A stretch of 57,328 nucleotides of DNA. It comes from a virus. The position numbers were made by a program, and so were the translations under genes. A model generated the notes under the pieces. That model worked only from the letters and a program-made list of their open reading frames with translations, ran no database searches and was not told the DNA's origin. Below are positions 37,935 to 51,813 of this stretch, piece after piece. The stretch is from the IMG/VR virus record IMGVR_UViG_3300032208_000014, positions 1 through 57,328 of that record, one strand, 5' to 3'. The stretch's first letter is position 1; the number at the start of each line of letters is the position of its first letter.

Positions 37935-39839
37935 CTAGCCTACTTCACCCCAGTTGTCACCAAGTTCTTGATCAACTTTGCTAGGAATTTTTAACTCTAG
38001 GCTCGTTTCCATAATCTCTGTAATACGCGATGCCTGTTGCTCGGACTCGACATTGAAGCATAGTTCGTCATGCACCGTGAGCAACGGCACTAGTCCCTCC
38101 TTGTAACACTCTACCATCGCCTGTTTGGTTTGATCGGCTGCCGAACCTTGGATCAATCTGTTCAATGCCTTGTATGTAAACGCACGCTGCAACGGTTGCA
38201 TGGGATATTCTTTACGCGCCTTGTCTAACGGCAGAGGCTTATTGTACCCAAACTTCTTTGGTTCCCACATATCAAATCTGCATAACCTGCCAAGTATCGT
38301 TCTAATCTGTCCGTGGGCATCGGCTCTTTCCGCCACCATGTCCGCCAAGCCTTTAACAAACGGAACCCTGTTATGGTACTGCTTCAATAGGTCTGTAGCT
38401 TCATCTTTGGTGATATCCATCGTGTTTGCCAGCTTGCCCTTGCCCATACCGTACATGATACCAAGGTTTACCGTCTTAGCCTGTTTGCGCGTAATACCTG
38501 CAAGGTCTGCCACCATTTGATGGAAGTCAGCATCCCCTTTCTTGTATTCTTCAACCACTTCATCAATAGCATAGTGCCTTTGATCGTTTGGTAGGGATGC
38601 ACAGTAATGCACCAAGAGCCTCGGTTCTTGGCTCGAATAGTCGAAGCTGCCCCATTTGCACCCATCATCCGGCACAAACAGGCCACGAATCATGGACTTA
38701 ATCTCTGGGTCACGCGCAGGGATTTGCTGGAGGTTTGGATTACTGGACGAAAATCTACCTGTCACAGTTCCGCCATCATCTGACCGCAGTGGATGAAACT
38801 CGCAGTGTATCCGCCCTTTGTACGAGAACTTTAAAATGTTGTCGATGAATGTATTGCTTGCCTTATCTAGTTCGCGCAGCCTAAGTATGCGTCCTGCAAT
38901 CTCATGTGGGTGGTTCTGTAAAAACTCTTTTCTGAAAGACGGCTGTTTAGTGTCTTCTGTCCGGCTGTAGTAAAGACCATAGTGGTCAAATACTTTTGCC
39001 ACACTGGTTGCTACCCACGGCTGTACCTCGATTCCTGTGTCGTGCTTAATGCCCGAAACAAGTTCTTTCTTTGCCTTAATTAAGCCAGCTTTTGCCTGCT
39101 CGGCTTTGTCTAGATCTACAGCCACACCCTTCTCGCGCATGTCAAGCAGGACAGGTATCAACGCTGTTTCAATGTCAAAGATTGTCATCAGGCTCTGCTG
39201 TTCCAAATCGATACGCATCTGGTTCCACAGCTTTAAGGTAAGTTCTGCATCTTTCTCGGCGTATGCACCCACAAAGCTAGAGTTTAGCTTCCACATCTCA
39301 GCCTTGGGGTCGATGCCAAAGTCCGCCGCTGCGGCTCGAAGAGTGCGCTCATCCTTACGCTCGTTCAGATAATCTTTTGCCAGATTGTTCAGGCTGTAGC
39401 TGAAGCGGTTCTCGTTCAGTAGCGGCGCGGCAATCATGGTGTCGATTATCGTGCCTTGAACCTTGACTCCTGCCCACCGTAGCCAGCCAGCATCGTATGT
39501 GGCGTTGTGCATAATTTTAGGAATGTCTGGTGTAGCCAACTGATCCTTCAGCCAAGACATCACACGCTTCTTTGAAATGTTGCCCCCGCCCTCGTGTGCG
39601 ATTGGGTAGTATCCAACAAAGTCACCAGCTGCGATAGCCACACCTACAATAAAGCCATCGCCCCTTGCCCAGCCAGGACCTAGCGTCATGATGTTGGGGT
39701 CACTTGTTTCCAAGTCAATGGCAATGTAATCCGCGTTACGCAGATCAGGGAAGTGGTCAGGTGGGAACCAATCTTTCTCGATTGTGTCCAAGTCCAGCCT
39801 GTTCAGATAACTAATCTGACTGCTTTCTTTCGAGGTCAT
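37935..39839 (-). CDS. DNA polymerase, family A, with 3'-5' exonuclease
   Basis: This 634-residue replicative polymerase shows exonuclease residues in IDLET (D42, E44), HNATYD (D116) and YAEKD (Y193, D197). Polymerase motif A is FDYSSQEPR (D400, E405), motif B RKQAKTVNLGIMYG (R451, K455, Y463) and motif C VHDE (590-592). The position equivalent to E. coli Phe762 is Leu459 (codon CTT at 38463-38465), a variant well known in marine viruses. ATG 39839 is chosen because GGTGGAGAG lies just upstream; an in-frame ATG at 39878 has no site. There is no 5' nuclease domain. It is the last gene of the replication operon. Confidence 0.93.
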   Translation of the reverse strand: MTSKESSQISYLNRLDLDTIEKDWFPPDHFPDLRNADYIAIDLETSDPNIMTLGPGWARGDGFIVGVAIAAGDFVGYYPIAHEGGGNISKKRVMSWLKDQLATPDIPKIMHNATYDAGWLRWAGVKVQGTIIDTMIAAPLLNENRFSYSLNNLAKDYLNERKDERTLRAAAADFGIDPKAEMWKLNSSFVGAYAEKDAELTLKLWNQMRIDLEQQSLMTIFDIETALIPVLLDMREKGVAVDLDKAEQAKAGLIKAKKELVSGIKHDTGIEVQPWVATSVAKVFDHYGLYYSRTEDTKQPSFRKEFLQNHPHEIAGRILRLRELDKASNTFIDNILKFSYKGRIHCEFHPLRSDDGGTVTGRFSSSNPNLQQIPARDPEIKSMIRGLFVPDDGCKWGSFDYSSQEPRLLVHYCASLPNDQRHYAIDEVVEEYKKGDADFHQMVADLAGITRKQAKTVNLGIMYGMGKGKLANTMDITKDEATDLLKQYHNRVPFVKGLADMVAERADAHGQIRTILGRLCRFDMWEPKKFGYNKPLPLDKARKEYPMQPLQRAFTYKALNRLIQGSAADQTKQAMVECYKEGLVPLLTVHDELCFNVESEQQASRITEIMETSLELKIPSKVDQELGDNWGEVG

Positions 39840-40092
39840 ATATCTCTCCACCCAGTGCTGCGTAACCTGCGATATCAACCCATGTGTCTGTATGTTCTGG
39901 GCTGTTAATTAAACGCGATAGTTTCAAAGAAATCATTGCCTGTACGACCTGCGCAACAGTAACTTCTTGTCCGAATATGGGACTCCATAAGTCTGCTACA
40001 CGCTGGAAATTTTCAGCAGCATCACCATAGTCCTCGGCTCTCGGACCATTGACCAGTCCCTCGGCTTTTTCTAGAAGTTCTTTTCTGTTCAT
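39811..40092 (-). CDS. DUF6378-like protein
   Basis: At 93 residues, the conserved phrases LVNGPRAEDYGDAAENFQRV, ADLWSPIFG, MISLKLSRLINSPEHTDTWV and DIAGYAALGGEIY fit the phage family I know as DUF6378 (unverified). The helical build resembles small nucleotide-pool hydrolase folds, but no catalytic set is clear. It is coupled to the helicase upstream (overlap 4 nt) and to polymerase downstream. Confidence 0.75.
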   Translation of the reverse strand: MNRKELLEKAEGLVNGPRAEDYGDAAENFQRVADLWSPIFGQEVTVAQVVQAMISLKLSRLINSPEHTDTWVDIAGYAALGGEIYDLERKQSD

Positions 40093-41609
40093 ATGTCGTA
40101 CCTGTATTTAGCCTCGTGGTCTACGATGTGTAAGTTTTCTTTTGCGCGAGTGATGCCTGTGTAAAACACTCGATGTTCATCGTCTTGGTCAGGGTTGTTC
40201 ACGGCAGGCCAACAAGACTCCGTAAACAACATGATATTATCGTCCTCACCACCTTTCATGCGGTGAATTGTAGACAGCTTTATGCGTGGGGTTTTAAGCG
40301 ATTCGCCTCGGAGTTGCAGAGCAGCAACATACCTTCTATCCTCCTTGGACATATTAACTATGTCCGCCGCTGGAGTGTCCATCCCAGCTATAAGTCCATG
40401 ATTTTCAACAAGTATATCATAGCCGTATAAACCCTCTGGGTCTAGTGCAGACAATGATTTTATAGAACCACGCTTGACAACGGCATTATCACCCGCCTTG
40501 GGCACTGCCTCATACAACTTAATCAGTGCGTCATGACTAACAACCTTGCCTTCCGCCAAGGCGTTCCAAATGTTCATGACCTCTAGCATTGTTTCGTTGA
40601 TGCTAAGTTTGTTGTTGATTCTAAAGAGATAGCCGTCATCCCGAAGCTGATGCGCTATCTTTGTAATGATTTTGTTAGTCCGCCCCATGATAGTCCACGA
40701 ACCCTGATCTACATCAATGTCATACCAGCTGCTATGAAACTGCACATCTCCGTGTCGCTCCATTGGGTTCCAGTCTTTTTGATAACGGTAGTCAATCCGC
40801 CTCACGACACTGTTAGCTAGAGAAAACACAGATTGCGGTACGCGATAGCTTTGCGTCAGAACGGTCTTGTTATCACAAGCGTTCATAAACTGCCCTACAT
40901 CTACGCCGTTCCAACGGTGGATACACTGGTCATCGTCACCTGCATACCAGACACGCTCGGCATTCTCTTTAACAACCTGAACCTGCTTCCACTGCAACGG
41001 TGTCAGGTCCTGGGCCTCGTCTACAATCAGAACATCTAACTGAGGTGCTGTGCCTTGCTCCACAAACAATTCAATCATGTCTGTAAAATCATACTTGTTG
41101 TTGTCGGCCTTGTAGTCAGCGTACACATGGTCAATATGAAGCAACTGTTCCCAATGTAGGTCGTAGTCGGCTCTGTCGTTAAACTCATCCTCTATCAAAA
41201 TGCACCGCATCTTGGCTCTGGATATTATTGACAAATACTTATTGCCCATCTGGTGCGACATAGGTATCAGCCCCTCGCCCATTTGTTCGGACGTACTGGA
41301 ATCAAACCTAACCCCAAGATCCCATTCTAATGCTTGCAAGTCTGTAGGTCCGATAACGTTTTGTTTTTCCATGCCCAACCACGCAAAGCCTAATGCGTGT
41401 AGTGTCTTGAACCACGGCAAGTCGTTGATCTCCAGATTAAACTTGCCCATAGCCCTGTCTCTTGCTTCCTCGATTGATTTCTTAGAGAAAGAAACAAAAC
41501 CTATGCGGTCAGGAGGCGTACCATTATCAAGCTCCTTCTGCATGATTTCCATCAAGGTATGGGTCTTACCGCATCCAGGTGGTCCGAATATAAGAGTTTC
41601 AGTCGGCAT
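40089..41609 (-). CDS. UvrD/Rep-like superfamily 1 helicase
   Basis: At 506 residues, Walker A is GPPGCGKT (near residues 8-15), Walker B IVDEAQDLTPLQ, motif III AGDDDQCIHRW, motif IV QSYRVP, motif V STIHRMKGGEDDNI and motif VI FYTGITRAKENL. The complete set indicates an active 3'-5' DNA helicase. ATG 41609 starts inside the upstream HTH gene. It probably unwinds DNA for the phage polymerase or repairs forks. Confidence 0.9.
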   Translation of the reverse strand: MPTETLIFGPPGCGKTHTLMEIMQKELDNGTPPDRIGFVSFSKKSIEEARDRAMGKFNLEINDLPWFKTLHALGFAWLGMEKQNVIGPTDLQALEWDLGVRFDSSTSEQMGEGLIPMSHQMGNKYLSIISRAKMRCILIEDEFNDRADYDLHWEQLLHIDHVYADYKADNNKYDFTDMIELFVEQGTAPQLDVLIVDEAQDLTPLQWKQVQVVKENAERVWYAGDDDQCIHRWNGVDVGQFMNACDNKTVLTQSYRVPQSVFSLANSVVRRIDYRYQKDWNPMERHGDVQFHSSWYDIDVDQGSWTIMGRTNKIITKIAHQLRDDGYLFRINNKLSINETMLEVMNIWNALAEGKVVSHDALIKLYEAVPKAGDNAVVKRGSIKSLSALDPEGLYGYDILVENHGLIAGMDTPAADIVNMSKEDRRYVAALQLRGESLKTPRIKLSTIHRMKGGEDDNIMLFTESCWPAVNNPDQDDEHRVFYTGITRAKENLHIVDHEAKYRYDI

Positions 41610-41820
41610 CAACCTTGTCCCGTGGCCTGTTTGCTAACCAATCCTCAACCTCGGAACGCAACCAACGTGTGGTGCTGTTCTGGTCTGCTTCTGGTCCTAG
41701 CACTACTGGCTTTGGGAAATGATCTTGGTCTACCCATCGGTAGATTGTGGAACGGGCAACGCCCAACCAATCTGTCAGGTCACCCACCTTCAGGTAACGA
41801 TCATCAGAATGGGATGTCAT
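41599..41820 (-). CDS. AlpA-like helix-turn-helix regulator
   Basis: At 73 residues, YLKVGDLTDWLGVARSTIYR, WVDQDHFPKPVVLGP and TRWLRSEVEDWLANRPRDK match the AlpA/HTH_17 (MerR-like) winged-helix pattern found in phage regulators and excisionases. Nested inside the replication operon with overlaps on both sides, it may regulate that operon. No integrase gene is present, so a pure excisionase role is unlikely. Confidence 0.8.
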   Translation of the reverse strand: MTSHSDDRYLKVGDLTDWLGVARSTIYRWVDQDHFPKPVVLGPEADQNSTTRWLRSEVEDWLANRPRDKVDAD

Positions 41821-43336
41821 TTTCTATCTCCTTCTTTGGAATATGAACTTCGTTATCGTCAAACTCTGGAACAAACCAAACGCGGACATTTTGCCATCGC
41901 CCTGTCTTGTCATCCTTGAGCTTGTAGTATGTGTTACAGTCACCACCGTTGTTTAAAATCTTCAGTCGTTCCTGTATCTGTGGCCTGTTAAGCTGCACGA
42001 AGTTTCGTGATCGTAAAAACTCTTGCAACCCCTTCATCGTAAAGAACGTCAAATCGTTCTCTGTCCACGGCTTACCAAGCCGTAGTTCTTCTGGTGCTCT
42101 CGCACGAATCCTGCTTGTACAAAAGATTTCCAAAAGTTCTTCAAACTGACCTGTGGTAGTCAGTTCTTTCGGCACCTCAATCGCCGTAGCAGTAGACATC
42201 AGATTGTTTACAAGCTGTTGCCAATCCGCTGGCTTCATGGTCGGAGGCATAAAATCAATTTGCTCCATACACGCACGTTGAAACTGCAACGGCATTTGCA
42301 GTTGTTCAGTAGACAACTCCAACCGCTGACCATTGACATCCAAGAAGTACAGGCGCGGGTCAGACTTCAGAATAGTAAGACCGCCCATAGATGGAGCCGC
42401 AGCGGAACCGCCCACACCATGTTCCATCGTCCGGCATTGGTCACGATTACAATAACTAGACATCGGCTCTTCCTTACATTTGTAGCCGTACTTGTCTTTT
42501 TCGATTGACTTCTGCAACGTGACCACTTCGTCCGCTGGCATCGGTGGTTTACATATCTTCTGGTTCCACGACTCTAGCTTCTTTTTCCAGTCGTCTGGAT
42601 ACTTCTTGCGTAAGAACACACCTGTATGAAACATAGCGTTGTTCCGCATACCCTGTGGTATGCCCATCAATACAAGGTTCTTGATACATGGTATCAGGCC
42701 GTCAAACTCATCGCTCTTAGTCTCAAACTTCAAAGCGTTCAACGCATCCAATGTAGTGCGTTTCTTTTCAATAACCTTCAAGAAATCAAGTAACTCAAGT
42801 TCTTCCCCCTTATCATCAAAAGCATATCGCACAGTGTTCTCGCTATCGAAGTATGGCAGGTTGATAAAGTTACCAACATCGCCACGGTCAGCGAGGATCT
42901 GATCTTGTTTTGGAAATATTTCACAGCCAGAAAAGCCGAGCACCGCAGAGAACTCGGTCAGACAGTCGCGCATGTCTACAGCCCTAATCCACTCTTTTGT
43001 GAACAGGTAGAGATGTGCACCACCAGATTTAGAACGACAAACTACAAACGGTATCTTGAGTTGCTTGCACTTCTTGGCTATCTCGGCATGGTCGATAGGG
43101 TACTTGTCAATGTCCAATACACCGAACTTACACATATTCTTATCATTAATAGGAATTGATCCCACACCTTTTTCACCATTGATATGTTGTGCAATTAACT
43201 CCTTTGTAAGCGGCTGTTTGACGATAAAACTTTTAGCTTCTGTTTTACCATTACGGCGTTGCTGTCCGATTGTGGTTTGACCGTGGGCGGCATCCGATCC
43301 CTCGAATGCCGCCGCAAAACGATCAACAATATCCAT
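41804..43336 (-). CDS. Archaeo-eukaryotic-type primase with SSB-like tail
   Basis: At 510 residues, AEP-type motifs are GVLDIDKY (D75-D77 region) and CRSKSGGAHLYLF (His108), with QDQILADRGDVGNFINLPYF following. A Cys cluster is near residues 285-300 (YKCKEEPMSSYCNRDQC), and a C-terminal helical domain follows. The protein ends EIENDIPF, identical in its last four residues to the SSB of this phage (HEDDIPF) and to E. coli SSB (DDDIPF). It probably makes primers for the family A polymerase. TOTE-type and phage primase-helicase relatives are alternatives, but no helicase motifs are present. Confidence 0.8.
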   Translation of the reverse strand: MDIVDRFAAAFEGSDAAHGQTTIGQQRRNGKTEAKSFIVKQPLTKELIAQHINGEKGVGSIPINDKNMCKFGVLDIDKYPIDHAEIAKKCKQLKIPFVVCRSKSGGAHLYLFTKEWIRAVDMRDCLTEFSAVLGFSGCEIFPKQDQILADRGDVGNFINLPYFDSENTVRYAFDDKGEELELLDFLKVIEKKRTTLDALNALKFETKSDEFDGLIPCIKNLVLMGIPQGMRNNAMFHTGVFLRKKYPDDWKKKLESWNQKICKPPMPADEVVTLQKSIEKDKYGYKCKEEPMSSYCNRDQCRTMEHGVGGSAAAPSMGGLTILKSDPRLYFLDVNGQRLELSTEQLQMPLQFQRACMEQIDFMPPTMKPADWQQLVNNLMSTATAIEVPKELTTTGQFEELLEIFCTSRIRARAPEELRLGKPWTENDLTFFTMKGLQEFLRSRNFVQLNRPQIQERLKILNNGGDCNTYYKLKDDKTGRWQNVRVWFVPEFDDNEVHIPKKEIENDIPF

Positions 43337-43338
43337 GA

Positions 43339-44166
43339 CTAGAACGGAATATCGTCTTCGTGGTCTATGTTGGTGGTTCCTTGCGCGATATCAGAGCCAG
43401 TTGACTCCTCTTCCTGTTGGGCTTTTGCTTCGCCCTTTAGAACCATCTCACGGAACGCTTTTGCCTCTGCAAAGACATTAGCACTGTCAACCTGACCAAT
43501 CCTTGAGATTGACCAAGACGACCAGCTACCACGGTCATTGGACTCGTCAATACCTGTAAAGTTCCACATAATCCCGAACAGCGGTGGGGTACGCATGTTA
43601 CCCTGCGAGTCCGGCAGCTTTTGCATCGCAATTTGTGTCTTCCAACGGCGGCTCACCTTCAGACCTGTAGAACGGAAGTCAATCACAGCCTTTTGTGTAG
43701 TTCCGTCTTCATTGAGGATCATGCAGTAAAAATTGTCAGACTTTACCAACTCACCTTCTACATTGCCGCCTGCGTCCATGACCCATTCCTTCGCACCATC
43801 ACGCTTCACACGCTTCAACAAGGGCTGAAGCTTTGGGTCAGAGAGATTGTATCTTTCATACCCACCTGCGTCAGTCTTAAACGCATAAATAGTTTCTTGG
43901 TGGACTGGAATAACAGTGATGCCTTTCTCTGGATCCCAAATCTGCTTCGTGATGGTGTTATAGATTTCACCCGCACGAAGTTCTTTGATGAAAGCAGGTT
44001 TCGCTTTCTGCATGGCCTCCGACATTGGATGCGCTAGACGGACATACGGGATTTCCATTTCACTAACATCAAAGTTAACACCCGCTCCCTCTTCCTCAAA
44101 CATTGCATCCATAAGATCATTGGTTGCGACAGCGGTTTCTTTTTTCTTTGCTACTTGTGTGCTCAT
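43339..44166 (-). CDS. Single-stranded DNA-binding-like protein
   Basis: At 275 residues, beta-rich core motifs include EIPYVRLAHPMSEAMQK, IYNTITKQIWDPEKGITVIP, and NFYCMILNEDGTTQKAVIDF. A Gln/Glu-rich linker and an acidic tip NIDHEDDIPF follow, the last four residues of which match the tail of bacterial SSB that recruits replication proteins. It likely coats ssDNA. It lies 2 nt upstream of the primase gene. Confidence 0.75.
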   Translation of the reverse strand: MSTQVAKKKETAVATNDLMDAMFEEEGAGVNFDVSEMEIPYVRLAHPMSEAMQKAKPAFIKELRAGEIYNTITKQIWDPEKGITVIPVHQETIYAFKTDAGGYERYNLSDPKLQPLLKRVKRDGAKEWVMDAGGNVEGELVKSDNFYCMILNEDGTTQKAVIDFRSTGLKVSRRWKTQIAMQKLPDSQGNMRTPPLFGIMWNFTGIDESNDRGSWSSWSISRIGQVDSANVFAEAKAFREMVLKGEAKAQQEEESTGSDIAQGTTNIDHEDDIPF

Positions 44167-44736
44167 TTATTTATTCCTCTTTACATCGGCAGTTCTTGCA
44201 ACATAGGCTCCAAACATATCCAAATCTATTGGTAGATTTTTCTCGACACGTTCTTTTACAAACGCCTTCAAGGTCATTGCGTGGATATGTGTTTTCTTTT
44301 CGGGGTGAAACCCCTTCTGCTCAAGGTCGTACATCACATCACCTGCAACGTTATCTTCACCTCGACCAAAAGAAACGATGACATCGTTCTTTATAATGTC
44401 ATCCAGACCGTGTTCACGGAGCCATGCAAAGGCTTCCTGCCTGCGGTCAGCAGGGATAGACGCAGATACAAAAGGTTTCAGCTGCACGGTTGCACCGTCA
44501 ACGTCCACACGCTCGATACCCATTTCATCCATGAGCATCGGTATTTGTTCCGTAGCTATCCGCTGTTTCTCTGCTTTTAGTTGCTTGAGATATTCTTCAC
44601 ACTGAATGATTTGCTCATTCTTATCCCTCAAGTCTTTAACCAAATCAGAAAGTGTTTTGCCTGTGTCGGCATTTACACCAGATAATGACGAGGGGTCTAC
44701 GACCTCATCGTCAAAGATGTCGATTACTTCTTTCAT
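44167..44736 (-). CDS. Coiled-coil protein at head of replication operon
   Basis: At 189 residues, the N-terminal 80 contain a long helix (KDLRDKNEQIIQCEEYLKQL and KAEKQRIATEQIPML). The remainder has EAFAWLREHGLDDIIKNDVI, VSFGRGEDNVA, and KKTHIHAMTLKAFVKERVE. The same protein type occurs next to SSB genes in marine podoviruses; Gam-like nuclease inhibitor was considered but not supported. First gene of the minus-strand replication operon. Confidence 0.65.
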   Translation of the reverse strand: MKEVIDIFDDEVVDPSSLSGVNADTGKTLSDLVKDLRDKNEQIIQCEEYLKQLKAEKQRIATEQIPMLMDEMGIERVDVDGATVQLKPFVSASIPADRRQEAFAWLREHGLDDIIKNDVIVSFGRGEDNVAGDVMYDLEQKGFHPEKKTHIHAMTLKAFVKERVEKNLPIDLDMFGAYVARTADVKRNK

Positions 44737-44814: not shown

Positions 44815-46272
44815 ATGGAAGTCAACTACAAATTTAAAACGACACCATATGTACACCAGAAGGAAGCCCTAGACCGTAGTATTCACAAGAACCTTTACGG
44901 GTTCTTTATGGAGATGGGGACTGGTAAGTCGAAGGTGTTAATAGATACCATTGCGTATCTTAGCGACACAAATCAGATTAACTTTGCTTTTATTATCGCG
45001 CCCAAGGGCGTGTACCGTAATTGGGTAAACAAAGAAATACCTGACCACTTTTGTGAAGATGTCCCCCATCATGTTTGCTACTGGCAAGCCAAAGACACTA
45101 AGGCTTATCGCAAAGAGCTAGAACAATTCTTCATGAATACCGAACCAGGTGTCAAGATATTTGTTATGAATGTCGAAGCATTTAGTTCAGGCAAAGGCAA
45201 GAAGATCGGGGAATGGATTGCCCATAAATTTGGCTGTCAAGGATTGATTGCTATTGACGAATCCACAACTATTAAAACCCCCACTGCCAAACGCACGAAG
45301 GTGCTTACAAAGATAGCGTCCAGCTTCAAGTATCGCAGGCTGCTGACAGGTTCGCCTGTAACTAAATCGCCTATGGATCTTTATACTCAATGTGAGTTTC
45401 TTGAACCTCGGCTCTTGGGTTATGATTCCTACTATGCGTTTCGGGGTCGGTACGCAATCCTGCGCAAACAGAAGATGGGCATTAAAGAGTTTCAAACGAT
45501 AGTCGGGTTTCGTAACTTAGAGGAGTTAACAGACAAGATTGCTCCGTTTACTTATCGGGTTCTGAAAAAAGATTGTCTGGACCTGCCGGATAAAAACTAC
45601 ACCGTGCGCTATGTGGATATGACGCTAGAACAGGTGCGCATGTACAAGGACATTCAGAAAGAGGCGATGGTGTTGCTGGAAAACGGCGACATCGTGACAG
45701 CTATGCAGGTGATGACGCAGCTTCTGCGGCTCCAGCAAATACTTTCGGGACACCTGAAGACAGATGATGGCGATATAGTTGAGGTGGACACTAACCGCAT
45801 ACATGCGCTGCTTGAATGTGTTGAAGAAGTTTCGGGTAAGATAATCATCTGGTCGCGCTTCCGTTACGATATCAAGAAAATTTTTACTGCCCTGCAACGT
45901 CAATTCGGGAACAATTCTGTGGTATGCTATTATGGAGACACAAGTGACGAAGATCGTCAGAAAGCGATACATCAGTTCCAGAACGGTGACGCTCGATTCT
46001 TTGTAGCTAATCCTGCAACAGCTGGTTATGGCCTCACGCTGACTGCGGCAAACACCGTGATATATTATGCTAATGACTTTAATCTTGAAACTCGGATCCA
46101 GTCAGAAGATAGATGTCACCGAATAGGTCAGAAGAACGCGGTCACATACATAGACCTGATTACAGAAAAAAGCATTGATGAAAAAATTGTGAAGTCGTTA
46201 CGAAACAAGATTGACATCGGGGCGAAGGTACTCGGAGAGGAGGCGAGAGAATGGCTACAGATCCAAAAATAA
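44815..46272 (+). CDS. SNF2-family helicase-like ATPase
   Basis: At 485 residues, motif I is MEMGTGKS (residues 32-39), motif II AIDESTTIK, motif III LTGSPVTKSPMDLY, motif V GYGLTLTAANTVIYY and motif VI SEDRCHRIGQK. This is a complete SNF2/DEAD-like core, short and without extra domains, as in phage SNF2 proteins. Such proteins remodel or unwind DNA in replication, repair or defence. It heads the plus-strand operon behind a strong promoter and Shine-Dalgarno AGGAGG. Confidence 0.9.
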   Translation: MEVNYKFKTTPYVHQKEALDRSIHKNLYGFFMEMGTGKSKVLIDTIAYLSDTNQINFAFIIAPKGVYRNWVNKEIPDHFCEDVPHHVCYWQAKDTKAYRKELEQFFMNTEPGVKIFVMNVEAFSSGKGKKIGEWIAHKFGCQGLIAIDESTTIKTPTAKRTKVLTKIASSFKYRRLLTGSPVTKSPMDLYTQCEFLEPRLLGYDSYYAFRGRYAILRKQKMGIKEFQTIVGFRNLEELTDKIAPFTYRVLKKDCLDLPDKNYTVRYVDMTLEQVRMYKDIQKEAMVLLENGDIVTAMQVMTQLLRLQQILSGHLKTDDGDIVEVDTNRIHALLECVEEVSGKIIIWSRFRYDIKKIFTALQRQFGNNSVVCYYGDTSDEDRQKAIHQFQNGDARFFVANPATAGYGLTLTAANTVIYYANDFNLETRIQSEDRCHRIGQKNAVTYIDLITEKSIDEKIVKSLRNKIDIGAKVLGEEAREWLQIQK

Positions 46273-46475: not shown

Positions 46476-46659
46476 CGGGAAGATGCAGCAAGATTTAAAA
46501 ATGGGACTTTGCCCAAGATGCCGGACAAATATGCCACCCGTAAATGTACACGGGCACACGCAGTGCACTGTATGCCACTTGGTTATAGACGAGTGCTGTC
46601 AAGGCGAAACTGCATCTTGCAACTTTGACACAACAGACAAGGCTGGGTCGCTGTCGTGA
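46453..46659 (+). CDS. Zinc-ribbon miniprotein
   Basis: At 68 residues, two Cys-x2-Cys pairs (LCPRCRTNMPPV and HTQCTVCHLVI) form a zinc ribbon, followed by DECCQGETASC. ATG 46453 has TGGAGA 6 nt upstream (a second ATG at 46447 abuts the site). Found next to SNF2 genes in marine phages, it may help recruit or regulate the helicase, which is inference. Confidence 0.7.
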   Translation: MSQILQGDGKMQQDLKMGLCPRCRTNMPPVNVHGHTQCTVCHLVIDECCQGETASCNFDTTDKAGSLS

Positions 46660-47108
46660 AACTGGAGGTTGTCCCTGTAACTACACGCGAGGCGAATGAG
46701 TTTGTTGCTAATTTTCACAGACACAACAAACCAACTAACGGCGGAAAGTTTTCAATCGGGGCAATTTACGGTGATGAACTTGTCGGAGTTGCTATAGTCG
46801 GGCGACCCGTGGCAAGGATGCTCGATGATGGGTTGACTGTTGAGGTTACCAGAGTTTGCGTTGTAGATCACGCACCCAAAAACACTTGCAGTTTTTTGTA
46901 CGGACGGTGCTGGCGCATCTGGCAACAGATGGGCGGCAAGCGCATGATTACATATACTTTGCAGGAAGAGTCGGGGTCTTCGCTTCGGGGTGCTGGCTGG
47001 AAAATAGTCGGGGAAGTAAAACCCACAGAGCGGGGCTGGGACAGGGATAACCGCAAACGAAATTGGCAACCAATCTACGGACAGATGAAGTTCAGGTGGG
47101 AAGCATGA
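46656..47108 (+). CDS. XF1762-family protein (GNAT-like)
   Basis: At 150 residues from GTG 46656, overlapping the previous stop (GTGA). Key phrases FVANFHRHNKPTNGGKFSIG, VGVAIVGRPVARMLDDG, VEVTRVCVVD and TYTLQEESGSSLRGAGWKIV fit the XF1762 family of phage and prophage proteins, predicted to be acyltransferases with a role in modifying DNA or protecting it. Found beside a PP-loop reductase-like gene here and in other phages. Confidence 0.8.
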   Translation: MKLEVVPVTTREANEFVANFHRHNKPTNGGKFSIGAIYGDELVGVAIVGRPVARMLDDGLTVEVTRVCVVDHAPKNTCSFLYGRCWRIWQQMGGKRMITYTLQEESGSSLRGAGWKIVGEVKPTERGWDRDNRKRNWQPIYGQMKFRWEA

Positions 47109-47887
47109 TTTTATCTTGGTGGTCGGCAGGCGTGACCAGCGCGGTAGCAACTAAACTTGCAATCGACAAATACGGGAAAGACAGAGTGCTGCCCGTCTAC
47201 TTCCATATCGACTCGGCTCACCCAGACAACGAGCGGTTCATTCGGGAGTGCGAGGAGTGGTATGGTCGGGACATCATGATCACCAAGTCGCACAAGCATA
47301 ACAACCAGTTCGAGGTCATCGAGAAAGACAAGTATGTAAACGGTCCTGGGGGTGCACGCTGCACTCTGGTTTTGAAGAAACGGGTTCGGGAGCGGATTGA
47401 ACGGGAGATGGAGTATGAGGCACAGGTCTTCGGGTTCGAGTTTTCCAAGAAAGAAGTCAATCGGGCGGTGCGGTTCAAGGAACAATATCCTGGGTCAAAG
47501 CCCATCTTTCCGCTCATCGAGAAGAAGCTGACCAAGCCGGAGTGTCTGTATTATCTTGAGGCGGCTGGCATCGAGCGACCAGAAATGTATAAGCTTGGCT
47601 ACGGCAACAATAACTGCATCGGTTGCGTAAAAGGCGGCAAAGGGTACTGGAATAAAATCCGCAAAGACTTCCCCGAATATTTTGACCGCATGGCTGCAGC
47701 AGAGCGGCTGGTTGGTAACTCATGCCTGCGTGGTGTGTATCTGGACGAGCTAGATCCAAACTCTGGACACAAGCAGAATTATGTCATGCCTGACTGCGGA
47801 AACTTTTGTGAAATAGAATTTGCAGATATCATGCACAAAGATATAGACTTAATAATGAAGCAACCAGAACAGTTGAGTTTATTCTAA
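47105..47887 (+). CDS. PP-loop (PAPS reductase-like) protein with C-terminal clamp motif
   Basis: At 260 residues, the PP-loop ATP-pyrophosphatase signature is SWWSAGVTSAVATK (residues 4-17), with HIDSAHPDNERF after it. Cys pairs in NNNCIGCVKGG and MPDCGNFCEIEF suggest an Fe-S or zinc site. The last five residues are QLSLF, the consensus peptide by which proteins bind the bacterial beta sliding clamp. ATG 47105 overlaps the previous stop. PP-loop enzymes of this type act in sulfur chemistry, including DNA phosphorothioation; a DNA-modifying role is likely but unproven. Confidence 0.85.
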   Translation: MILSWWSAGVTSAVATKLAIDKYGKDRVLPVYFHIDSAHPDNERFIRECEEWYGRDIMITKSHKHNNQFEVIEKDKYVNGPGGARCTLVLKKRVRERIEREMEYEAQVFGFEFSKKEVNRAVRFKEQYPGSKPIFPLIEKKLTKPECLYYLEAAGIERPEMYKLGYGNNNCIGCVKGGKGYWNKIRKDFPEYFDRMAAAERLVGNSCLRGVYLDELDPNSGHKQNYVMPDCGNFCEIEFADIMHKDIDLIMKQPEQLSLF

Positions 47888-50578: not shown

Positions 50579-50684
50579 TTTTACCTCCGTAAATTTGAAA
50601 CCAATGGTCAGTGCAGTACGCCCGATTTCCATCGAGCGCATCCGCCTTTTTATCGCATTTATCGCATTTTCTGATACTAAGCAT
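50481..50684 (-). CDS. Small Cys-rich protein after the methyltransferase
   Basis: At 67 residues, ATG 50684 overlaps the methyltransferase stop. It reads MLSIRKCDKCDKKADALDGN, RAYCTDHWFQIYGGK. Cys-x2-Cys followed by a Cys-x2-His suggests a treble-clef-like zinc site. The second half overlaps 50390-50578 in another frame and looks less protein-like, so the true end may differ. Confidence 0.5.
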   Translation of the reverse strand: MLSIRKCDKCDKKADALDGNRAYCTDHWFQIYGGKNGKSQGMADGYGRGRDGHEPRSVGREAWYVVR

Positions 50685-51813
50685 TCATCCCCCTCATCAA
50701 GTGACAGATAACATCAACCGTCCATCCATTACCAAGCATACGATACCGCTGGGTATTTGACACATGATTTGTGTAATTTTCTGGAACGGTCTGTAAACGC
50801 TCACATTCTAAAGGCGTAAGCTTACGCCATTGAAGCTGGTCAATGTCAGCCACAATGCTGTCCTTATATATGGTGGACAGACAATTCGACTTCTCATCTT
50901 CTCGCACCTCGACCCTTGATTTGAGGGGAATGGACTTGTCGTTATCTTTGCGCTTGCCATTCTCATCGAGCCTGCGTTTCACGATCCTCGCACCTCGAAG
51001 CAACACTTTTGGTTCAAGATTGCCACCAGATGCCGCGCACAAACTTGGGGCTTTGCCGTCTGGATCATAAACCCTGCGATTATAATCGTGACCCTTCAAG
51101 TCTGCGTGCCCAGCCAATATCAAGCCTGTGCCATCCAACTCCATGTCGAACACAAGCTGTCTGCGATTTTTCTGAAAATATGACTTCAGATTACCGCCCT
51201 TGAAATAGTTCGCATCTATGCAATGCGACTTGTCACGGTCAGTCCAGCCATCTTCGAGAATATCTTTGAGCATGATATTTCGGTTGCGTGGTGCACCCTC
51301 GACAGGGATGTTTGTCCAATACAGGCGGTCACGATTTTGCGCTGACACCAGATTAGAATTTATCCTGATAGGTTCGACCCCAAGCTGACTGGAAATTACA
51401 TCCTGATATTCCTGTTTCATATTAACATTCTCAAGCAGGAAATATTTTGGCTTCAACTCCCTCAACAGGCGCACATATTCAAAAAACAATTTACTGCGTG
51501 GGTCGTCAAAGTTCAGTTGCTTGCCAGCAAACGAAAACCCCTGACAGGGCGAACCGCCAATCAATATGTCTATCGTGTGTCGAAAGAAACCCTTTTCGAG
51601 GTCAACACCATTATGAGCGACACACAAACGCCCATCCTTGGTTTTAAGTTTGGTCACATCGCCCATGTGTATCGTGTCAGGATAATTGGCCTTCGCAACT
51701 TGGATTGCATATTTGTCAATTTCTGACGCGAAATAATTTTCGACCTTGAAGCCGCACCGCTCAAGAGCGATGCGACCACAAGACATTCCATCAAATAAAC
51801 TAAGAACGTTCAT
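50677..51813 (-). CDS. DNA (cytosine-5) methyltransferase
   Basis: At 378 residues, it shows motif I LSLFDGMSCGRIALERCGF, motif IV GGSPCQGFSFAG with catalytic Cys90, motif VI LLENVN, motif VIII QNRDRLYWTN, motif IX KLTPLECERLQTVPENYT and motif X YRMLGNGWTVDVICHL. All parts of an active Dcm/DNMT-type enzyme are present. The target-recognition region is about residues 185-310. It probably methylates phage DNA against host restriction; no restriction enzyme is beside it. Confidence 0.9.
   Translation of the reverse strand: MNVLSLFDGMSCGRIALERCGFKVENYFASEIDKYAIQVAKANYPDTIHMGDVTKLKTKDGRLCVAHNGVDLEKGFFRHTIDILIGGSPCQGFSFAGKQLNFDDPRSKLFFEYVRLLRELKPKYFLLENVNMKQEYQDVISSQLGVEPIRINSNLVSAQNRDRLYWTNIPVEGAPRNRNIMLKDILEDGWTDRDKSHCIDANYFKGGNLKSYFQKNRRQLVFDMELDGTGLILAGHADLKGHDYNRRVYDPDGKAPSLCAASGGNLEPKVLLRGARIVKRRLDENGKRKDNDKSIPLKSRVEVREDEKSNCLSTIYKDSIVADIDQLQWRKLTPLECERLQTVPENYTNHVSNTQRYRMLGNGWTVDVICHLMRGMNA

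Follow-up and report, generated by a model that had tools for sequence, protein, structure and literature searches.

The window analysed here (positions 1 to 57,328 of IMG/VR virus record IMGVR_UViG_3300032208_000014, thus 57,328 bases) codes for two replication proteins that share a C-terminal tip: a single-stranded DNA-binding (SSB)-like protein, gp34, ending in EDDIPF, and a primase of the archaeo-eukaryotic primase (AEP) superfamily ending in ENDIPF. Both tails are real, kept at the protein level, predicted to be disordered and drifting within the family. With a probability of roughly one half, we propose that the two tips duplicate a single docking ligand and that one pocket recognizes both, on a component of the phage replisome that is most likely its family A DNA polymerase (PolA). 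Three points of this proposal are inferred: a common receptor for both tails, its origin from a phage gene and its identity as the polymerase. The features concerned are:

43339..44166, minus strand: gp34, SSB-like protein of 275 residues with an OB-fold body, a disordered linker and the tip EDDIPF (PF23977, phrog_2402, AlphaFold2)
43342..43359, minus strand: codons of the SSB tip EDDIPF (sequence)
41804..43336, minus strand: AEP-type primase of 510 residues with an AEP domain, a PriCT-1-like region, a C-terminal winged helix and the tip ENDIPF (PF22548, phrog_21866)
41807..41824, minus strand: codons of the primase tip ENDIPF (sequence and conservation)

Conservation of the two tails

The two endings had been pointed out in an earlier note on this DNA and were confirmed from the sequence: codons GAA GAC GAT ATT CCG TTC TAG give EDDIPF in the SSB gene, and GAA AAT GAC ATC CCA TTC TGA give ENDIPF in the primase gene. 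When all open reading frames (ORFs) of at least 40 residues in the window were scanned, none besides these two displayed such a C-terminus. Likewise, among 3898 ORFs of at least 120 residues in the fetched loci (primase and SSB excluded), five ended in PF and a single one in acidic-X-PF. Chance likeness of the two tails was ruled out by these background counts together with conservation.

The SSB-type tip that the note had recognized on the primase was conserved throughout the 80 nearest IMG/VR loci. Every complete primase ended in PF (IPF, VPF or APF), including those of the two most distant loci, with 57-58% primase identity and an EAPF end. The SSBs of the same loci ended in PF, or in HF in one subgroup. 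In the window clade (25 representatives), the last two primase residues were invariant and residues -5 to -15 varied. The codons beneath the invariant PF varied as well (TTC or TTT; CCA, CCT, CCG or CCC). On the tree of this clade, position -3 underwent at least four changes in the primase and 14 in the SSB.

The start of a downstream gene lies within the primase tail codons:

41599..41820, minus strand: small AlpA/HTH_17 helix-turn-helix (HTH) protein, start codon within the primase tail codons (sequence and profile match)

In most of the window clade, this start codon (window position 41820) precedes the primase gene end by 14-20 bases, an overlap that probably reflects translational coupling. 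The primase tail might thus be a mere by-product of the overlapping HTH start, an explanation to which we attach next to no weight. Third-base changes that alter the HTH protein and leave the primase unchanged were common, and primase-altering changes at P and F were absent. Moreover, the tail was kept where the overlap is absent, i.e. in relatives L067-L078 and most other clades. Since the substitution pattern favours the primase and the tail persists without the overlap, selection acts on the primase frame, and the by-product explanation is rejected.

Identity of the tail-bearing proteins

In profile searches, residues 17-248 of gp34 matched Pam3_Gp34 (PF23977, E=4.9e-41) and phrog_2402 (E=2.4e-48); neither the OB domain of bacterial SSBs (PF00436) nor any NCBIfam entry was matched. 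The AlphaFold2 model of gp34 (pLDDT 87) displayed an OB-type (oligonucleotide/oligosaccharide-binding) body, with residues 259-273 forming a disordered C-terminal linker. Its structural matches were mainly OB-fold proteins binding single-stranded DNA (phiC31 recombination directionality factor, Z 8.4; BRCA2 OB, Z 6.8; T4 gp32, Z 5.7), followed by many SSBs and RPA at Z about 3, and Foldseek returned weak matches only (E>0.01). The model is consistent with an SSB, for which binding of single-stranded DNA is predicted. The best of these matches, the phiC31 factor, hints that this recombination directionality factor may share an SSB-like fold.

The primase matched AEP-TOTE (PF22548, E=1e-18) and a primase profile, phrog_21866 (E=1e-92). 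Its catalytic motifs were intact (DxD as D75-I-D77 and SGGxH/sxH as S104-GGA-H108) and invariant in 29 relatives. In the model of a relative (L023), the AEP domain aligned over 194 residues with the CRISPR-associated CAPP Prim-Pol of Marinitoga (7nqf, Z 19.9), and the C-terminal domain resembled a winged helix. By fold and motifs, the protein is an AEP superfamily enzyme, and primer synthesis is its predicted activity. A sequence search of the PDB with SSB, primase and gp33 as queries gave no usable match.

Drift of the tips within the family

Scans with six primases as queries yielded over 400 loci in all, and an annotated phage collection yielded 25 records. Clustering at 60% identity left 33 lineages, of which 29 had a hydrophobic last residue in the primase and 28 in the SSB. 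Comparison proteins gave 2/33 (gp33), 7/27 (PolA) and 12/28 (SNF2). Representative tips are listed below (primase/SSB):

Window clade: DIPF/DIPF
Phage DSL-LC04 clade (clade B): KSRSPF/SGATPF and similar
023Pt_psg01 clade: EENF/DSTPY
HTVC027P clade: ENIV/QDIV, in all complete pairs
ct3Et533: PPPFV/DIPFA
DMU1: SEF/GEF
Kokobel2: AEF/SEF
VLCpiS6a: SEF/EDM
L167: EPDL/EPEL
Contigs of metagenome-assembled genomes (MAGs): HEAPF/QDAPF and EMPF/DLPF

DIPF is one state among several, and the tips drift, often as matched pairs. Three gp34 relatives (L351, L367 and L398) have arginines at the C-terminus (ARRR, SFRR) where the others have a hydrophobic residue, and two of their three partner primases end in I, not F.

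The last ten primase residues carried a mean net charge of -2.88 in the window clade versus +0.88 in clade B, with PF kept in both. Since acidity was lost in clade B while PF stayed, phage and receptor have probably diverged together. These figures also bear on the idea that the tails are generic acidic C-termini (DNA mimics or solubility tails) that keep each protein off its own DNA-binding site, their likeness being convergence without any shared receptor. For Enc34 ORF6 and T7 gp2.5, a role of acidic tails in tuning DNA binding has been proposed (PMC5686142). Yet, clade B primase tails are not acidic and still keep SPF, and the last residue is the most conserved tail position, which generic acidity does not predict. 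We therefore consider this explanation improbable.

Host-type tips on a separate protein

The earlier note had related the tails to the tip of bacterial SSB. Host mimicry is an alternative: the two tips would stand in for the bacterial SSB tip and recruit PriA, RecO, chi or ExoI, or pull them off host SSB. EDDIPF and ENDIPF are close to the host consensus DDDIPF, with its acidic run and C-terminal Phe, the elements read by pockets such as K447/R452/K518 of DnaG (PMC5872125). Furthermore, three phages of the Z-genome type bear DDD(I/L)PF on a separate small SSB, so that host-type tips are in use by phages. An acidic run followed by IPF was, however, not kept family-wide: in most relatives, either the acidic run or the I is missing (KSRSPF, EENF, SEF, NIV, PDL), and the SSB residue at -3 drifts freely, with the 14 changes reported above. 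This occurred even though the hosts of some relatives (Klebsiella, Salmonella) have an SSB ending in DDDIPF, as do Pseudomonas SSBs (PMC4137731).

The distribution of tips within single genomes was particularly informative. Klebsiella phage VLCpiS6a and Salmonella phage PMBT28 display SEF on the primase, EDM/TEM on gp34 and DDDIPF on another small SSB (phrog_18154 in VLCpiS6a). In Acinetobacter phage DMU1, the small SSB ends in DDDLPF and the primase and gp34 in SEF and GEF. Because the host-type tip sits on a different protein within one genome, the gp34/primase tip would be read by a partner co-diverging with the phage. Phage-private docking tips would thereby be set apart from true host SSB-tip mimicry, which in some phages is borne by another protein. 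Judged from these sequences, the evidence points away from general host SSB-tip mimicry, which we regard as unlikely, and towards an SSB/primase tag with a phage-encoded partner. Two suggestions of the note are affected. Competition of the primase tip with SSB for a partner stays plausible, but host SSB-binding proteins are not supported as the general partners, since neither the acidic run nor the isoleucine of IPF is kept across the family. Direct recruitment of host proteins likewise lacks support as a general statement and is possible only for the window's own subclade, where the tip is near the host version.

The small SSB genes (L250:29101-29427, L252:29099-29440 and L258:30124-30426) adjoin PolA, and these Klebsiella, Salmonella and Acinetobacter relatives carry adenylosuccinate-synthetase-like genes (Z-genome type).

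Matching of primase and SSB tails

Primase and SSB had an identical last residue in 14 of the 33 lineages, where 10.5 would be expected. Adding T7, Enc34, SS2019XI, FoX4 and ASh-2020a, which represent two unrelated systems, brought the figure to 18 of 38, where 11 would be expected (p=0.001); T7 and Enc34 were picked as known analogues, and the other three by SSB homology, before their tails had been seen. The association between aromatic and non-aromatic ends gave p=0.17 over the 33 lineages and p=0.0015 over 61 less independent ones. Taken as sequence comparison, pairwise tail matching is no more than suggestive of a shared tag.

A proposed shared docking tag and its candidate receptors

The ligand would consist of a flexible, usually acidic linker and a free hydrophobic carboxy-terminus (DIPF in the window). 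The SSB tail would bring the receptor component to coated single strands, and the primase tail would bring it to the fresh primer or release it there; competition of the two tails for one pocket would then produce a hand-off. PolA is the leading candidate receptor because it is common to T7, Enc34-like phages and nearly all of the phages studied here: it was present in nearly all lineages with gp34 and an AEP primase, where enough sequence is known. If the proposal is true, matching C-termini would suffice to recognize the replication partners of a phage, and the pocket of the receptor would be a defined, testable target. The proposal would also account for the coordination of a stand-alone AEP primase with SSB and polymerase in the absence of a helicase fusion. 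Candidate partners encoded in the window are:

37935..39878, minus strand: family A DNA polymerase (PolA) with a 3'-5' exonuclease domain, leading candidate receptor for both tails (PF00476, PF01612; best PDB chain 7pbk)
40089..41612, minus strand: UvrD/Rep-like helicase, candidate tail partner (PF00580, E=1.9e-24)
44167..44736, minus strand: gp33-like protein (DUF7307/phrog_2378), immediately upstream of the SSB gene, candidate tail partner (profile matches)
44815..46272, plus strand: SNF2-type helicase, divergent neighbour of the module, candidate tail partner (PF00176, E=1.6e-20)

The UvrD-like helicase (window 40089-41612) itself displayed a conserved aromatic-X-I/L C-terminus in most relatives. 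The gp33-like gene sits upstream of gp34 throughout the family, PB1-like phages included.

Several observations weigh against a shared tag read by a phage polymerase. The exact-residue match over the 33 gp34 lineages reached just p=0.052 and the match by residue class p=0.24, and sister lineages in these counts are partly dependent. For I/V/A matching at position -3, the 2-3 independent contrasts within the window clade pointed the same way but were too few for a test. A conserved aliphatic last residue was also found in the UvrD-like helicase (24/31). In the AlphaFold2 model of a natural gp33-SSB-primase read-through protein (L023), both tails were left unplaced, with pLDDT under 40; this model covers only gp33, SSB and primase as possible docking partners. 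Finally, PB1-like phages display an acidic...F tail on gp34 together with a Pol III-type polymerase, and no AEP primase was found in the sequence examined. Given this pairing of a tailed SSB with another type of polymerase, PolA cannot be the sole receptor.

The same phages help to delimit the two tails. Related primases without a tail were recorded only in distant relatives, namely Nanhaivirus R26L and Pan1, and HTVC023P (L253, L254 and L256), where gp34 still ends in VPF. Since these primases are tailless and PB1-like phages keep the gp34 tail, the SSB tail appears broader and the primase tail limited to part of the family. The Nanhaivirus and HTVC023P primases constitute natural controls for tail loss.

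Docking of the tails on gp33, SSB or primase received no support from the read-through model. One such arrangement deserves mention, in which the primase tail docks in the OB cleft of gp34 as a copy of the SSB's own tail and places the primase on coated DNA. It would resemble human PrimPol, in which D519/F522 contact the OB fold of RPA70N at its basic cleft (PMC5457501), and gp34 is indeed a co-diverging phage protein with an OB fold. Against it, the primase tail was not placed on gp34 in the model, and the gp34 tail is kept in PB1-like phages although no AEP primase was found there; we hold this arrangement to be quite unlikely, somewhat more so than host mimicry.

Comparison with known systems

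The closest analogue of the proposed shared tag is found in T7, where SSB gp2.5 ends in DEDGDF and the primase-helicase gp4 (gp4A) in SNDTDF. The gp4 tails attach to basic patches of the T7 family A polymerase, gp5 (PMC12593628; PMC8472574), and the tail of gp2.5 has been linked to contacts with polymerase and primase-helicase (PMC5686142). As in T7, the SSB and the priming enzyme of one phage display acidic, Phe-terminated tails in the presence of a family A polymerase. Unlike gp4, a TOPRIM primase-SF4 helicase fusion, the priming enzyme of the window is composed of AEP and PriCT-1 only; moreover, the OB-fold gp34 has no sequence match to gp2.5 and the tip is DIPF instead of DF. Since the primase superfamily differs and tail-polymerase binding is drawn by analogy only, the window module would work like the T7 shared tail without being a member of that system.

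Bacterial SSB offers nearly the same six residues, an acidic IPF tip at a free C-terminus after a disordered linker. Yet, the gp34 body is not PF00436, the second bearer of the tip is a primase, and relatives lose the acidic run and the I. In phage HK620, the SSB likewise displays an SSB-tip-type tail (NDYPPF), needed for the cognate phage partner Sak4 (PMC5928155), but no tailed primase has been reported there. Human PrimPol is also an AEP enzyme with an acidic/aromatic C-terminal docking motif, its RPA-binding motif (PMC5457501). This motif is, however, not terminal, forms a helix and binds RPA70N, and the SSB itself lacks it. A literature search, with subscription journals mostly outside its reach, found no description of an SSB-type tip on an AEP primase.

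Unrelated Casjensviridae-type phages share lineage-specific tails among SSB, primase and exonuclease: DEDEV in Enc34, DDDL/EDDL in SS2019XI and DEL/EDL in FoX4. Their module (DUF2815 SSB, Prim-Pol/PriCT-2/DUF5906 primase, DUF2800 exonuclease and PolA) resembles that of the window by an acidic-hydrophobic tail on SSB and primase, but differs by V or L ends, a tail on the exonuclease and another SSB family. In Enc34 (L406), SS2019XI (L408) and FoX4 (L409), four products of a single replication region (the primase, the DUF2815 SSB, the DUF2800 exonuclease and a small protein) displayed near-identical acidic tails ending in V or L; the small terminase subunit of Enc34 also ends in DDDEV. Tentatively, and with more doubt than confidence, a private tail code may be common in phage replisomes: SSB, primase and sometimes a nuclease would share a lineage-specific tip for one phage receptor, the code having arisen independently in at least three unrelated systems (T7, Enc34-like phages and the gp34/AEP module) and the bacterial SSB tip being one form of the principle.

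Genomic surroundings

The operon of the window follows the order gp33-like gene, SSB, primase, small HTH protein, UvrD-like helicase, DUF6378 protein and family A DNA polymerase. Near relatives were encountered on MAG contigs labelled Maricaulis and SAR202, labels that may reflect viral contamination. Elsewhere in the window (46656-47887 and 50677-51813) occurred a Mom-like DNA modification gene adjoining a PAPS-reductase-like gene, and a C5 cytosine methylase.
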